The translations under genes were made by a program, and so were the position numbers. DNA of 63,954 nucleotides from IMG/VR virus record IMGVR_UViG_3300004154_000014, positions 1 through 63,954 of that record; one strand, 5' to 3'. Positions 9,304-54,537 of this stretch are shown here, in pieces. The notes beneath the pieces were generated by a model. It saw only the letters and a list, made by a program, of their open reading frames with translations. It did not search any database and was not told the origin of the DNA. The stretch is from a virus. How positions within the stretch are numbered: the stretch's first letter is position 1; each line of letters begins with the position of its first letter.

Positions 9304-9492
9304 ATGAAGGAATGGCTGACCCTCGCCGGTCAGGTGCTGCTGGCAGCACTGATCGTCGCAGTAGCCATCGGGGTGGGCTTCGTGCTCACCCTTTTTTCTT
9401 CCGTGATCACCTTCCTGGCTATCGGACTGTGCGCCCTCGGCGGGCTAGTATTACTGGCCCGGGAATGGCGTGACCACCTAACGCGGAAATAG
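9304..9492 (+). CDS. Small membrane protein, 62 aa
   Basis: Two hydrophobic segments (about residues 7-28 and 30-52) with a basic C-terminal end REWRDHLTRK, predicting two membrane spans. It starts three bases after the preceding stop, so it belongs to the same transcript. Not recognised. A holin-like or envelope-modulating role is possible but unsupported. Confidence 0.55.
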   Translation: MKEWLTLAGQVLLAALIVAVAIGVGFVLTLFSSVITFLAIGLCALGGLVLLAREWRDHLTRK

Positions 9493-9561
9493 CGTCAGGT
9501 TCCAAGGAGGGCCTAGGTCTCACCGGGCTCTCCCCTCAACTACTTGCTCCTGAAAACTACA

Positions 9562-10164
9562 ATGAACGAGCCATCCGAAACACCGAAACAACAGGAGTTG
9601 TTGGAAGCGCAGACCCAGTGGTTTCACGTCTTCAAGGCGATGATCGAGCAGGGTGACGTGGCCAAGATGGGGCCGCATGCCTTCACGGTCTATGTCGTGA
9701 TCAAGGCCCATACCAATTTCTCGACTGGCCATGCCTTCCCCGGGATTGACGTAATCGCCGAGAAATCCGGGGTCTCCGTCGCGCAGGTAAAGCGCGAACT
9801 GAAAACCCTGGAAGCAGCCGGCTACATCACCAAGGAAAAGCGTGGGCGGTCCAACCATTACATCTTGCGCGAGAAGATCAACGTCACCGACGCACATGGC
9901 CGCCCGCAAGCCGTAGCCACCTGGGACTACCTGCCCAGCAGTGTCCAGCATGCCGTGGCCGACCTGAAAAACGTGCTGGTGTCCGGTGACCTGGCCGGCG
10001 CCAAGGTCGTGCATATCGAGCGCTTGCAGGTGAACGTCACCCACCTGCATGACAACGCGATGAACTTCAACGTGCAGGAGTTCACGGCGGATCTGGAGAA
10101 GCTGCCCAAAGCCATGCGGGACAAGCTGCTGGCCAACTGGAAAAGCCAGCAGGATGACGAGTGA
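9562..10164 (+). CDS. Winged-helix replication-initiator-like protein
   Basis: 200 residues from ATG 9562; an earlier in-frame start at 9544 is possible. Residues about 35-100 form a helix-turn-helix_36 type winged helix (GPHAFTVYVVIKAH, AEKSGVSVAQVKRELKTLEAAGYI, then a basic wing KEKRGRSNHY). Such domains occur in plasmid and prophage replication initiators and in phage regulators. The next 186 bases contain two DnaA boxes and inverted repeats, which favours a Rep or origin-binding role. The alternative is a transcription regulator acting at the late/early boundary. It is convergent with the vRNAP gene. Confidence 0.55.
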   Translation: MNEPSETPKQQELLEAQTQWFHVFKAMIEQGDVAKMGPHAFTVYVVIKAHTNFSTGHAFPGIDVIAEKSGVSVAQVKRELKTLEAAGYITKEKRGRSNHYILREKINVTDAHGRPQAVATWDYLPSSVQHAVADLKNVLVSGDLAGAKVVHIERLQVNVTHLHDNAMNFNVQEFTADLEKLPKAMRDKLLANWKSQQDDE

Positions 10165-50974: not shown

Positions 50975-53056
50975 ATGCGTCATCTGTCCTTCAAGGAATC
51001 GGCTACCTACCCGGTCGCCCTGCTGCTCAAACCCAACGCCTTCCTCCAGTCCGAAATCCTCCGCCACTACGGCGAACCCCTGGCAGCCGCCGGCATACCC
51101 CTCGACGATCTGATCGCCATGACCCTGGACAACCCGTCCGAGGGCAAGCTGACCGTGAAGTTCGCCAAGGAGTATGCCGACAAGCTGCTCCAGGCCCTCG
51201 ATACTGTGGACACCCGGCTGCTCTATTGCACCGACGCTACCTACTTCAAGGTGCTCACCAAGCAGACCAAGGCCGAGCCCCACCTGGGCTATGCCCTGCC
51301 CTGTGCCCTGCCTGGCTTCGAACACATGCAGGTGGTACTGGGCATCGGCTACCCGAGCCTGTTCTACAACCCGGCGCTGTCAGCTAAGCTCGACCTCTCG
51401 CTCAAGGCCTTGGTTGGGCAGTACGCTGGCAACTACCGACCACCGGGAGAGGGCATCATCCACCACGCCGAGTACCCCGCGAGCGTGGTGGAGATCAAGG
51501 CGGCACTGGACAAGCTGCACCAGTACCCCTACCTGGCAGCCGACATCGAGGCATTCAGCCTCAACCATTGGCTGGCTGGGATCGGCTCGATATGTTTTAC
51601 GTGGAACACTCATGAAGGCCTGGCCTTTCTGATCGACTACGTACCCCTCGCCGAGCCGGTTTGGGACAACCCCAAGAAGCAAACCACCGGGCAATTCGGC
51701 CAGCAAGTCTTCAACCCCGAAGTGCGTGCCCTGTTGCGTGAATTCTTCGAGACCTACCGGGGCACCTTGCGCTGGCACCGGGCAAGCTTCGACCTCAAGG
51801 TACTGATCTACCAGCTGTGGATGTCCTCGATCGACGATACCGCCGGGCTGCTACGGGGCCTGGAGGTGATGACCCGACACTTCGACGACACCCTGGTGAT
51901 CACCTACCTGGCCACCAACAGTTGTGCTGGCAACGAACTGGGCCTGAAAGCCAATGCCCACGAGTTCGCCGGCAACTGGGCCAACGAGGAGATCAAGGAC
52001 ATCCGGCGGATCAAGCCAGGTGAGCTACTGCAGTACAACCTGGTCGACGGCTTGTCCACCAACTACGTCTTCGACAAGCACTACCCGACCCTGGTCGCCG
52101 ACCAGCAGGAGGAGCTTTACCAGGGCTTCATGAAAGACAGCTTGCGGGTGCTGATCCAGACCATGCTGACCGGGATGCCGGTCAAGCCGGCGCGGGTCCA
52201 GGAGGTCAAGGAGATCCTCGAGACCAAGCGTGACGAGCTGTTCGACAGCATCGTCGCCAACCCCCTGGTCAAGGCGCTCAATCTGGTGTTCCAGAAGAAA
52301 GCCCAGGAGGCCGCCAACGCCAAGCTGAAGGTCAAGCAACACCCACTGGAACATTTCAGCGGCGTGATCTTCAACCCGGGCAGTCCGCAACAGGTTCAGT
52401 ACCTGCTCTACGAGCAGATGGGCCTGCCGGTGCTCGACAAGACCGACAGCGGGCAGCCGTCCACCGGCGGCGATACCCTGGCCAAGCTGATCCACCACAC
52501 CGAGGTGCCAGCCTACAAGGCGGTGATCCAGGCCCTGATCGACCTCTCCGGGGTGGTCAAGATCCTCTCTTCATTCATCCCGGCGCTGGAAGGTGCGGTG
52601 CCGATCCCGGGCACCGAGTACGCCCTGCTGTTCGGTAACTTCAACCTCGGCGGTGCGGTCTCCGGCCGGCTTTCCTCCTCGGACCCCAACCTGCAGAACC
52701 TGCCGGCCAAAGGCCTCTGGGGCAAGCTGATCAAGTCCTGCTTCATCGCTGCCCCGGGCTGGCTGTTCGCCGGATCAGACTTTGCCAGCCTTGAGGACCG
52801 CATCAACGCCCTGTTGACCAAGGACAGAAACAAACTGCGTGTGTACACGGATGGGTTCGACGGCCATTGCCTGCGAGCCTTTGCTTATTTTCCTAGTGAG
52901 TTGCCTGGGATAACCCAGGCCCAAGAAACTGATCGCTGTTTCCGGATCACGATAAAGGGCCAAACTTTTCTATGTAAAAGTGGGGACTTTATTATAACCT
53001 CAGCGGGAGAGCACATTCCAGTAGAGCAGTTTTATGATTCCTATCAAAGAGTATGA
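50975..53056 (+). CDS. DNA polymerase, family A, N-terminal part (gene split)
   Basis: 693 residues carrying the 3'-5' exonuclease (ADIEAF, D190 and E192; HRASFDLK) and the first half of the polymerase domain: SGRLSSSDPNLQN, then motif A GSDFASLEDRI with D602, then DGHCLRAFAYF. It stops before the O-helix, in a stretch (CFRITIKG to YDSYQRV) that I cannot assign with certainty to the polymerase. The rest of the polymerase lies beyond an HNH endonuclease gene. DNA becomes less GC-rich from about 52830, as if a segment around the split was replaced. Start ATG 50975 follows CAGGAG. Its N4 counterpart is gp39. Confidence 0.88.
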   Translation: MRHLSFKESATYPVALLLKPNAFLQSEILRHYGEPLAAAGIPLDDLIAMTLDNPSEGKLTVKFAKEYADKLLQALDTVDTRLLYCTDATYFKVLTKQTKAEPHLGYALPCALPGFEHMQVVLGIGYPSLFYNPALSAKLDLSLKALVGQYAGNYRPPGEGIIHHAEYPASVVEIKAALDKLHQYPYLAADIEAFSLNHWLAGIGSICFTWNTHEGLAFLIDYVPLAEPVWDNPKKQTTGQFGQQVFNPEVRALLREFFETYRGTLRWHRASFDLKVLIYQLWMSSIDDTAGLLRGLEVMTRHFDDTLVITYLATNSCAGNELGLKANAHEFAGNWANEEIKDIRRIKPGELLQYNLVDGLSTNYVFDKHYPTLVADQQEELYQGFMKDSLRVLIQTMLTGMPVKPARVQEVKEILETKRDELFDSIVANPLVKALNLVFQKKAQEAANAKLKVKQHPLEHFSGVIFNPGSPQQVQYLLYEQMGLPVLDKTDSGQPSTGGDTLAKLIHHTEVPAYKAVIQALIDLSGVVKILSSFIPALEGAVPIPGTEYALLFGNFNLGGAVSGRLSSSDPNLQNLPAKGLWGKLIKSCFIAAPGWLFAGSDFASLEDRINALLTKDRNKLRVYTDGFDGHCLRAFAYFPSELPGITQAQETDRCFRITIKGQTFLCKSGDFIITSAGEHIPVEQFYDSYQRV

Positions 53057-53747
53057 AGTGCAATACACCATTGCTGAAAATGGTGATGTCACCCGTAGGG
53101 AAACAGGGCGGATACTCCGCCCTAGTCTCAATAAGCAAACAGGTTATCTGTATGTTGGGTTGTGGAAGCACAACATTGGTAAGACGTTTGCTGTACATCG
53201 GCTGGTTGCTGAGCATTACATTTCCAATCCAGCAAACAAACCTTTCGTCAATCACAAAGACAGTATAAGAACCAATCCGCACAAGGATAATCTGGAATGG
53301 TGTACTCAAGGGGAAAATATACTCCACGGGTATGCCCAAGGATTCATGAGCCAGGAGAATCGCCGGAATTTCAAAGACTTCGAGTTGGATCTGCTTCTTC
53401 AATCCGTCCTTGCTGGAGAGACTATGACAACTCTCGCATCGGCTGCTGACGTGGGCTTAGGGCGACTGACGATCAACTTGCGTAAATATGCGGATACTGC
53501 TGGATTACTTGAAAAATTTCTGGAGGAGTTGTACCGACAAAAGTGTGAAAGGAACGCGCAGGCCAACGTGAATAAACGCAGACCTATTCTGCAGTGGACA
53601 ATCCAAGGCACTCTAGTATCGGAGCATGAAAGTGCAACAGCTGCTGCTAGAACTCTGGGGCGTTCTTCTGCAGGTTCTATATTCAATGCCCTTAATCCCG
53701 GTAAGACTCAGCAGAAGGCTTTTGGTTACTTATGGACATTCAAGTAA
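53034..53747 (+). CDS. HNH homing endonuclease inserted in the DNA polymerase gene
   Basis: 237 residues overlapping the end of the polymerase N-part by 23 bases. Residues 1-55 resemble a NUMOD4-type domain. The HNH core is HRLVAEHYI, VNHKDSIRTNPHKDNLEW (N73-H74, N86). Residues about 180-237 look like a NUMOD1 DNA-binding repeat ending FGYLWTFK. Such enzymes cut homologous alleles lacking the insertion and so spread by homing; I-HmuI of phage SPO1 is a known case in a DNA polymerase gene. AT-rich codon use contrasts sharply with neighbours and marks it as acquired. Confidence 0.88.
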   Translation: MIPIKEYEVQYTIAENGDVTRRETGRILRPSLNKQTGYLYVGLWKHNIGKTFAVHRLVAEHYISNPANKPFVNHKDSIRTNPHKDNLEWCTQGENILHGYAQGFMSQENRRNFKDFELDLLLQSVLAGETMTTLASAADVGLGRLTINLRKYADTAGLLEKFLEELYRQKCERNAQANVNKRRPILQWTIQGTLVSEHESATAAARTLGRSSAGSIFNALNPGKTQQKAFGYLWTFK

Positions 53748-53860
53748 ACGGTGACTTCTCAATAGAAGAAGTCACCACAGATATATTCAACGTCTTTCAA
53801 ATTAACCGGATTAAAAAGGAGTATGGGGCTCTTCGAGATGAATCGAAGAGCCCCACTTGA
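53732..53860 (+). CDS. DNA polymerase internal fragment encoding O-helix start (ends at TGA)
   Basis: A 42-codon frame from ATG 53732 to TGA 53858-53860. Its last 21 residues, FQINRIKKEYGALRDESKSP plus Thr, match the family A segment just before the conserved TFLLTYGG, including the O-helix Arg and Lys (R-x3-K). It is in the same frame as the polymerase N-part but not as the C-part. It is therefore genuine polymerase sequence cut off by a stop at the exact point where the other frame continues. Whether translation starts at this ATG is unknown. Confidence 0.6.
   Translation: MDIQVNGDFSIEEVTTDIFNVFQINRIKKEYGALRDESKSPT
53825..53854 (+). promoter_or_regulatory. Perfect 12-bp hairpin before the polymerase frame break
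   Basis: GGGGCTCTTCGA and its reverse complement flank a 6-base loop. The hairpin ends one base before the ACT codon that precedes the in-frame TGA. It also encodes conserved polymerase residues, so its perfection is notable. It could be a recoding signal, part of a self-splicing RNA, or coincidence. Confidence 0.65.
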
Positions 53861-54537
53861 CTTTCCTCCTTACCTACGGAGGTTCCTGGCGCGGCTTGAT
53901 GGCCAACCTCGGCTGGCCCAAAGAGAAAGCCCTGCGTATTGAGGCCAACTACCACGCGCTGTACGTCGAGTCCGACGAGTGGGTGAAAGCCAAGATCGAC
54001 GAAGCCGCCCGGCTGGGTTACGCCACCTCGGCCTTTGGACTGCGCATCCGGGCACCCTTGTTGACCCAGACCCTGCGGGGGAGGGCCAAGTGTCCCCATG
54101 AGGCGGAAGCCGAAGCCAGGACGCTTGGAAATGCCATCAGTGGCCAGTCCTATGGCCTGCTGACCAACCGGGCCGCCAACGCCTTCATGGCCAAGGTCTG
54201 GGCCTCGCCCTACCGGTTGGACATCCTCCCCGTGGCGTTCATCCACGATGCGATCTACCTGCTGATCCGCAGCCGTCCGGAGATCGTCGAGTGGGTTAAC
54301 CGCGAGCTGATCACCGAGATGCGATGGCAGGAGCTGCCGGAGATCACCCATGACCAGGTCAAGCTGGGCGCCGAACTGGACTTGTTCTATCCCAGCTGGG
54401 CCTACCCGGTCACCCTGCCCAACGGTGCCGATGCCGCCACCATTCTCGAACGCTGCCAGGCCCACCGGGACGAGCTGCACGAGAAGGGTGTTTTGCCTGC
54501 TTTACCCACGAAGAAAACCCCCATGTCTACCCCCTGA
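53857..54537 (+). CDS. DNA polymerase, family A, C-terminal part
   Basis: 226 residues covering the second half of the polymerase domain: TFLLTYGGSW (end of O-helix), FGLRIRAPLL, and motif C VAFIHDAIYLL with the catalytic Asp at codon 54247. The TTG that opens the frame is probably not a real start. The first conserved residues (TFLL) begin at 53860, right after the frame break, so this part must be joined to the upstream fragment by recoding or splicing, or be inactive. GC-rich codon use returns here, as in the N-part. Confidence 0.8.
   Translation: MTFLLTYGGSWRGLMANLGWPKEKALRIEANYHALYVESDEWVKAKIDEAARLGYATSAFGLRIRAPLLTQTLRGRAKCPHEAEAEARTLGNAISGQSYGLLTNRAANAFMAKVWASPYRLDILPVAFIHDAIYLLIRSRPEIVEWVNRELITEMRWQELPEITHDQVKLGAELDLFYPSWAYPVTLPNGADAATILERCQAHRDELHEKGVLPALPTKKTPMSTP

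Follow-up and report, generated by a model that had tools for sequence, protein, structure and literature searches.

A 2020 review names coliphage T4 as the only case in which translational bypassing had been observed (PMC7576135); the existence of shorter counterparts has long been presumed, as a 2016 review records (PMC5009743). In T4, the HNH endonuclease gene mobA is inserted in, and splits, a replication gene encoding a topoisomerase, giving the order 39, mobA, 60 (PMC3014915, PMC5009743, PMC11194080). The downstream part, gene 60, carries a stop-containing interruption of 50 nt about 42–46 codons past its start, with the stop immediately after the take-off codon, a stem-loop at the take-off site, and take-off and landing codons that can be paired by one tRNA. 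A GAG that precedes the landing site by 6 nt is proposed to work as a Shine-Dalgarno-like landing aid (PMC3014915). As for the history of this arrangement, the endonuclease is described as having come first and the recoding site as having been kept (PMC5009743, PMC3014915). One possibility reported is that MobA travels with the 50-nt gap as one mobile cassette, which the gap makes resistant to cleavage (PMC5009743).

The locus described here, in the split DNA polymerase gene of an N4-like phage, shares with gene 60 the HNH gene that splits a replication gene, the distance of the stop-containing interruption from the start, the stop directly behind the take-off codon, the stem-loop there, a Shine-Dalgarno-like sequence 6 nt before landing, and take-off and landing codons that one tRNA could pair with. 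A preliminary description of this DNA had drawn the same parallel with gene 60 and mobA, and the HNH-split gene, the stop at the take-off codon and the stem-loop were indeed found. In contrast to gene 60, the gene encodes a DNA polymerase, the gap measures 5 nt so that there is no long gap to slide through, the stop and the landing codon overlap, a KKYK nascent peptide is missing at the same distance, and the site occurs in many lineages rather than one. Two further systems are instructive. In synthetic ‘stop-hops’ in E. coli, matched codons flank a stop and the peptidyl-tRNA re-pairs a few bases on (PMC5009743), as proposed here; the polymerase site, however, is natural, conserved and accompanied by a hairpin, and 8 nt instead of 9 specify one amino acid, whereby the reading frame changes. 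The byp elements of Magnusiomyces capitatus mitochondria are likewise small inserts in essential genes that are skipped, with landing codons that are not always matched (PMC5009743), but these are mitochondrial and described as context-independent, whereas the present case concerns one site in one gene with a hairpin of its own.

A family A DNA polymerase gene split by an HNH endonuclease gene

The window, by which we mean the whole stretch of DNA analysed, is the 63,954-bp virus record IMGVR_UViG_3300004154_000014 from a virus of bacteria. It codes for a 3,516-aa virion RNA polymerase, an RNA polymerase subunit, a Dda-like helicase and a family A DNA polymerase in N4-like order, and the phage is therefore N4-like (Schitoviridae-type). 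As had been claimed beforehand, the DNA polymerase gene is cut by an adjoining HNH gene, which lies between pol-N (50975–53056) and pol-C (53732–54537):

50975–53056, plus strand: pol-N, the N-terminal part of the family A DNA polymerase, 693 aa including a non-native C-terminal tail
52913–53056, plus strand: the pol-N tail, 47 aa, TQAQETDRCFRITIKGQTFLCKSGDFIITSAGEHIPVEQFYDSYQRV followed by a stop; it replaces native sequence and holds the start region of the HNH gene
53034–53747, plus strand: HNH homing endonuclease gene, NUMOD4 and HNH_3 with a C-terminal extension
53732–53860, plus strand: first frame of pol-C (ORF1), 42 codons plus TGA, MDIQVNGDFSIEEVTTDIFNVFQINRIKKEYGALRDESKSPT
53863–54537, plus strand: second frame of pol-C (ORF2), FLLTYGG... 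to the stop, with the remaining O-helix and the palm domain

Pol-N matched DNA_pol_A (E 7.9e-28) and the PHROG DNA polymerase family (E 1.6e-103), and it is 43–54% identical to intact N4-like polymerases. This match extends until ...AYFPSELPGI, where the 47-aa tail begins. The tail is missing from intact relatives, while homologous tails occur in L020, L184, L185, L186 and L189; its predicted structure is mostly beta, at low confidence. The HNH gene shares 23 nt with pol-N and 16 nt with pol-C, and its domains were recognized as NUMOD4 (E 5.5e-7) and HNH_3 (E 6e-4, slightly under the curated cut-off). Pol-C starts at the ATG at 53732, within the HNH gene, and the polymerase sequence is picked up again at QINRIKKEYG. 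ORF2 matched DNA_pol_A at E 3.3e-6, which is under the curated cut-off; it aligns to intact polymerases and has the equivalents of F762 and Y766 as well as the conserved HDA motif.

A low-GC block (about 40–50% versus about 62%) runs from 52830 to 53862, from the last part of pol-N through the HNH gene to the junction in pol-C; a conversion tract would be expected to look like this. Further perfect hairpins were noticed at 53750–53776 (10 bp, just past the HNH stop) and 52903–52920 (7 bp, at the start of the pol-N tail), and visual inspection of L020 revealed weaker stems at the corresponding positions. An intein or split intein was considered since the tail resembled intein block A (CKSGDFI). 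This was rejected: no Hint domain was detected with Pfam, and L185, L189 and phage Pollock have other residues where the tail has Cys. A group I intron covering the HNH region was likewise discarded, as no Rfam match was obtained in the window or L020, whereas the controls L017 and L010 matched RF00028 and the polymerase-gene introns of L010 and nACB1 were recovered.

A five-base interruption in motif B

Pol-C is broken at the following positions:

53855–53857, plus strand: take-off codon ACT (Thr), which is ACT or ACC in all seven lineages described below
53858–53862, plus strand: skipped segment TGACT, a TGA stop plus CT, whose last three bases are the landing codon ACT

Before the break the frame reads ...TCG AAG AGC CCC ACT (53855–53857) TGA (53858–53860), and past it ACT (53860–53862) TTC CTC CTT ACC TAC GGA GGT, the two frames being offset by exactly five bases. 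The joined peptide, ...R-D-E-S-K-S-P-T-F-L-L-T-Y-G-G, aligned without gaps to intact N4-like polymerases, and also to motif B of E. coli Pol I, R754-x3-K758-x3-F762-x3-Y766-G, in Pol I numbering. When an intact relative was aligned to E. coli Pol I, the break fell between F762 and the residue preceding it in the motif R-x3-K-x3-F-x3-YG. The earlier claim of an ACT/TGA/ACT frame break, joining across which restores S-P-T-F-L-L-T-Y-G-G, was thus confirmed, both in the sequence and by alignment to intact polymerases. Simple readthrough of the stop was dismissed, as it does not restore the frame.

Recurrence of the interruption in other N4-like lineages

We searched across 2.9 million viral contigs (IMG/VR) with a degenerate pattern consisting of K-x-P-T, a stop, two bases and F-x-L-T-Y. 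This yielded eight stretches, and all eight were DNA polymerases with the arrangement ORF1, stop, 2 nt, ORF2, and with a hairpin at the same place. In each, ORF1 is short and ends in ...KEYGALRQ.SKAPT or a close variant, and the second ORF is open. The closest relative, L020, came to light among the HNH relatives in IMG/VR. It has the cassette of the window at the same site, with a similar tail and pol-C lead and the same hairpin, and DNA identity with the window peaks at 90% over 53797–53856, the flanks being about 57% identical. The L020 junction reads ACC-TAGCT-TTT, which retains the offset of five and the stop, with TAG replacing TGA. Since L183, L184 and L187 represent one type, the interruption is present in seven independent lineages when the window is included (the window, L020, L183/L184/L187, L185, L186, L188 and L189).

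An ACY take-off codon followed directly by a stop, an interruption of exactly five bases and a covarying hairpin in the same position are common to the seven lineages, as are the ORF1 lead and KEYG(A/S/G)LR..SK(A/S)PT. The stop itself varies: it is TAA in three lineages, TAG in two and TGA in two, and the segments skipped in the relatives are TAACT, TAATT, TAGCT, TAACC, TGACT and TAGCT. In all seven, a 5-nt skip alone restores K-x3-F-x3-Y-G. ORF2 is intact in six of the seven (about 205–225 codons), and in L188 it ends at the contig end or is unfinished. When all five bases were left free, the scan gained two extra matches only, both in unrelated proteins, and every interrupted polymerase found therefore has the stop. 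With the gap left free from 3 to 32 nt (AAG-GC codons only), nothing but 5-nt cases appeared among polymerases. The scans thus show that the interruption is always five bases long and always starts with a stop.

All interrupted cases are metagenomic contigs, and tblastn with three ORF1 peptides and two tails gave no interrupted polymerase from a cultured phage among the matches listed. The exact hairpin sequence, scanned over genome contigs, was encountered at two loci only, from bacterial genomes. At the level of genomic sequence, then, the five-base interruption is not a one-off. A sequencing or assembly indel as the source of the five bases was ruled out by this recurrence, and a co-conversion boundary was excluded because in L020, where the low-GC tract is longer, the five-base offset is unchanged and lies within that tract.

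A covarying hairpin at the take-off codon

53824–53855, plus strand: RNA hairpin of 13 bp (53824–53836 paired with 53843–53855) with a 6-nt loop; its 3′ end is the first base of the take-off codon

This hairpin had been described as a perfect 12-bp stem that ends one base before the take-off codon. It is indeed perfect, but it comprises 13 bp, and the last pair includes the A of the take-off ACT. All other perfect short-loop hairpins in the 64-kb window are shorter. A stem of 9–13 bp is present at the same place in all seven lineages; in every interrupted gene it starts with TGGG and ends with CCCA, its 3′ end lying on the take-off A or one base earlier. None of 12 uninterrupted relatives has the hairpin, stems there being at most 7 bp and at other positions. 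Folding predicted an additional outer helix, RAAAG/CTTTY, around the hairpin.

Conservation of synonymous sites between the window and L020 alone was weakly significant (p 0.04), and a synonymous-codon test across the lineages was therefore used in its place. For covariation, the loop was swapped for a constant spacer so that the arms aligned. The resulting figures are not strict probabilities, as the lineages share ancestry and the per-sequence values are not independent: with amino acids fixed, 0 of 3000 random synonymous recodings of the window made a stem as long, and across the sequences the observed length was reached in 0/3000 to 110/3000 recodings per sequence; in the aligned arms 98.4% of cells are paired, both partners have changed in four of nine pairs, and covariation scores 0.40 versus 0.18 in shuffles (0/500 shuffles), slid controls being lower. 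These sequence comparisons give good support for selection acting on the stop-containing 5-nt interruption together with the hairpin at take-off.

Conceivably, the gene could be a dead polymerase, either a frameshifted remnant of a botched homing event or an assembly error, and the low-GC tract of the window does end close to the junction, as it would at a conversion boundary. That the same length, stop and hairpin are found in seven lineages, with compensatory changes and an intact ORF2, and that no second DNA polymerase was found among the larger window genes scanned, makes this exceedingly improbable. Alternatively, the five bases might be removed from the RNA, as a minimal intron or by hairpin-directed processing. 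While the hairpin abuts the segment and the segment is of constant length, RNA removal leaves unexplained why the segment always starts with a stop codon of changing identity, and it is not backed by any Rfam match in the window, although the group I introns of L010 and L017 were detected; we regard it as extremely unlikely.

Programmed −1 frameshifting was weighed as well. The peptidyl-tRNA-Pro would slip from CCN to the overlapping C-CC before the stop, yielding P-(N/H)-L-(T/A/I)-F. Re-pairing would be possible in six of the seven lineages, in which a C precedes the Pro codon, and in all of them a Leu codon (YTR) would be read across the stop; as the stop-bearing TRR is YTR in the −1 frame, part of the stop conservation could be read otherwise. 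Such a shift would, however, add two residues (N/H-L) to the O-helix and break K758-x3-F762, a hallmark of family A, and it would require neither a stop codon nor exactly 5 nt. The hairpin is 5′ of the slip site instead of 5–8 nt 3′ of it, the −1 frame is open for just 10–16 nt in L184, L188 and the window, and in L186 tRNA-Pro would need to pair with TCC. We therefore consider a −1 shift unlikely. A −1 shift at the AAAAAG 5′ of the hairpin was rejected, since the window has no open −1 frame there, and the counterparts of R754 and K758 would be lost.

Landing codons and the Shine-Dalgarno-like run

The landing triplets of the seven lineages are ACT, ACT, ACT, ACC, GCT, GCT and ATT. Take-off and landing codons are identical in the window and L184 and synonymous ACY codons in L188 and L189, whereas L186, L020 and L185 have GCT or ATT, with which a tRNA-Thr with anticodon GGU can pair only through G-U. 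Outside the window, the combinations include ACT to ACC, ACC to ACT, ACT or ACC to GCT, and ACT to ATT. Once G-U is allowed, every landing triplet can pair with GGU, the pair being needed at codon position 1 or 2 for GCT (two lineages) and ATT (one lineage). The first landing base is A or G because the stop codon forces it, and the two pyrimidines that follow were left unconstrained in the scan pattern. A previous proposal of a stop-hop with a hairpin and an HNH gene gained comparative support from seven lineages, while the matched codons that formed part of it turned out not to be strictly conserved.

53813–53821, plus strand: putative Shine-Dalgarno-like run, AAAAAGGAG, 2 nt 5′ of the hairpin

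If the hairpin loops out, this run would lie 6 nt from the landing codon in the window and 6–8 nt from it across all interrupted sequences, compared with the 6 nt of gene 60. A Shine-Dalgarno-like purine run just 5′ of the hairpin was observed in all interrupted genes, and it is not conserved in intact ones. The KKYK nascent-peptide signal, located in gene 60 about 30 residues before take-off, is absent from ORF1 of every lineage. The only motif resembling it is KKEY, 11–14 residues before take-off in the window, and it is itself variable.

The same elements might serve to produce two more polypeptides, if ribosomes terminated at the stop and reinitiated on ORF2, with the hairpin placing the Shine-Dalgarno-like AAGGAG near the start. 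Such a sequence does precede the hairpin in all cases, and in the window a TTG at 53857–53859 overlaps the stop. The counterpart of this TTG, however, is TTA or CTA in five of the seven lineages and CTG in another, so that a conserved start codon is lacking; in L020 the first ATG comes past the YG motif, and the polymerase would be severed within its catalytic helix. Reinitiation is thus very unlikely.

A candidate five-nucleotide ribosomal bypass

The comparative evidence points to a five-base skip by ribosomes within the sequence for the active-site helix of the polymerase, in the window and at least six other N4-like lineages. The site is probably a programmed 5-nt ribosomal bypass, located in the message that encodes the C-terminal subunit of the split DNA polymerase, and we infer that a fused pol-C product is made by the hop. 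An ancestral mobile cassette would have entered the polymerase gene and split it, bringing along the HNH endonuclease, the pol-N tail, a fresh pol-C start and, 42 codons on from it, the 5-nt interruption with its stop. Ribosomes at codon 42 (ACY) would find the stop in the A site. The hairpin, opened in passage, may re-form behind the decoding site and pull on the mRNA, whereupon the peptidyl-tRNA-Thr would drop the ACY codon and re-pair 5 nt downstream on RYY. Landing could be aided by the AAGGAG, which looping out of the hairpin would bring to 6–8 nt before the landing codon. Translation would then restart at TTY, giving the native K-x-P-T-F-x-L-T-Y-G helix with zero extra residues. The interruption may also have shielded the DNA that carried it from its own HNH enzyme; for T4, Shub and colleagues reportedly described a mobile cassette composed of MobA and the 50-nt gap, with the gap guarding against cleavage.

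On balance, we favour the broader idea of a second natural phage bypass family, in which a 5-nt stop-containing hop occurs as the hairpin loops out, an upstream Shine-Dalgarno-like sequence sets the landing codon, and the site is spread by an HNH cassette and outlasts the endonuclease. If shown, this would be a second natural family of ‘ribosome hopping’, which in phages is known only from T4 gene 60. It would provide many natural, alignable examples with a minimal gap, from which the roles of the stop, hairpin, matched codons and Shine-Dalgarno-like sequence can be separated. It would also hint that homing endonucleases repeatedly bring recoding sites along, and would reveal a catalytic helix that hinges on recoding for its integrity.

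The HNH endonuclease and other split polymerases

An HNH gene splits the same gene in the window, L020, L185, L186 and L189. The HNH proteins of the first four are homologous over their full length (41–59% identity), that of the window being 59, 41 and 44% identical to its same-site counterparts in L020, L185 and L186, respectively. L183, L184 (with the locus on the reverse strand) and L187 have no HNH gene between pol-N and pol-C, and in L188 (reverse strand, 9480–9610) only the C-terminal end of the HNH gene is left; all four have kept the split, the hairpin and the 5-nt interruption. In a tree of ORF2, the intact L008 groups with the interrupted L186, and the interrupted L189 is their sister (support 94/91 and 95/93), which means that the interruption was gained or lost between lineages. 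The best explanation, as far as sequences tell, would be that the 5-nt bypass entered with the HNH cassette, in parallel to T4 mobA and gene 60. In L189 (reverse strand, 652–1182 and 1500–2123), the polymerase gene has, besides the cassette HNH gene, a second one further upstream.

Cultured phages Pollock, SP5M and Pylas and their kin likewise have a related HNH gene that overlaps both polymerase parts, and a similar pol-N tail. Here the insertion lies about 20 residues earlier (KVY|GYDG) and, unlike in the window, motif B is uninterrupted. A related HNH gene also splits the polymerase at KVY|GYDG in L014, L015, L016, L018, L019 and L022–L027, comprising cultured and uncultured N4-like phages, and the pol-N tail of phages split at this site resembles that of the window despite the different insertion sites. 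The pol-N tails may hold the two polymerase pieces together. The viability of Pollock, SP5M and Pylas argues that polymerases of this kind are functional as two pieces. Aeh1 NrdA and gp43 of Aeromonas phage 25 are two-piece enzymes that work (PMC2988022), and in Aeh1 nrdA/mobE and phage 25 gene 43A/43B two polypeptides must reassemble, as would pol-N and pol-C; unlike for the window, no recoding site is mentioned for these genes (PMC2988022).

Ordinary group I introns with HNH genes were also observed in N4-like polymerase genes, at 2852–3689 in L017 and 5685–6477 in L010. The nACB1 intron lies a few bases 3′ of the hop site, and motif B is therefore a repeated homing target.
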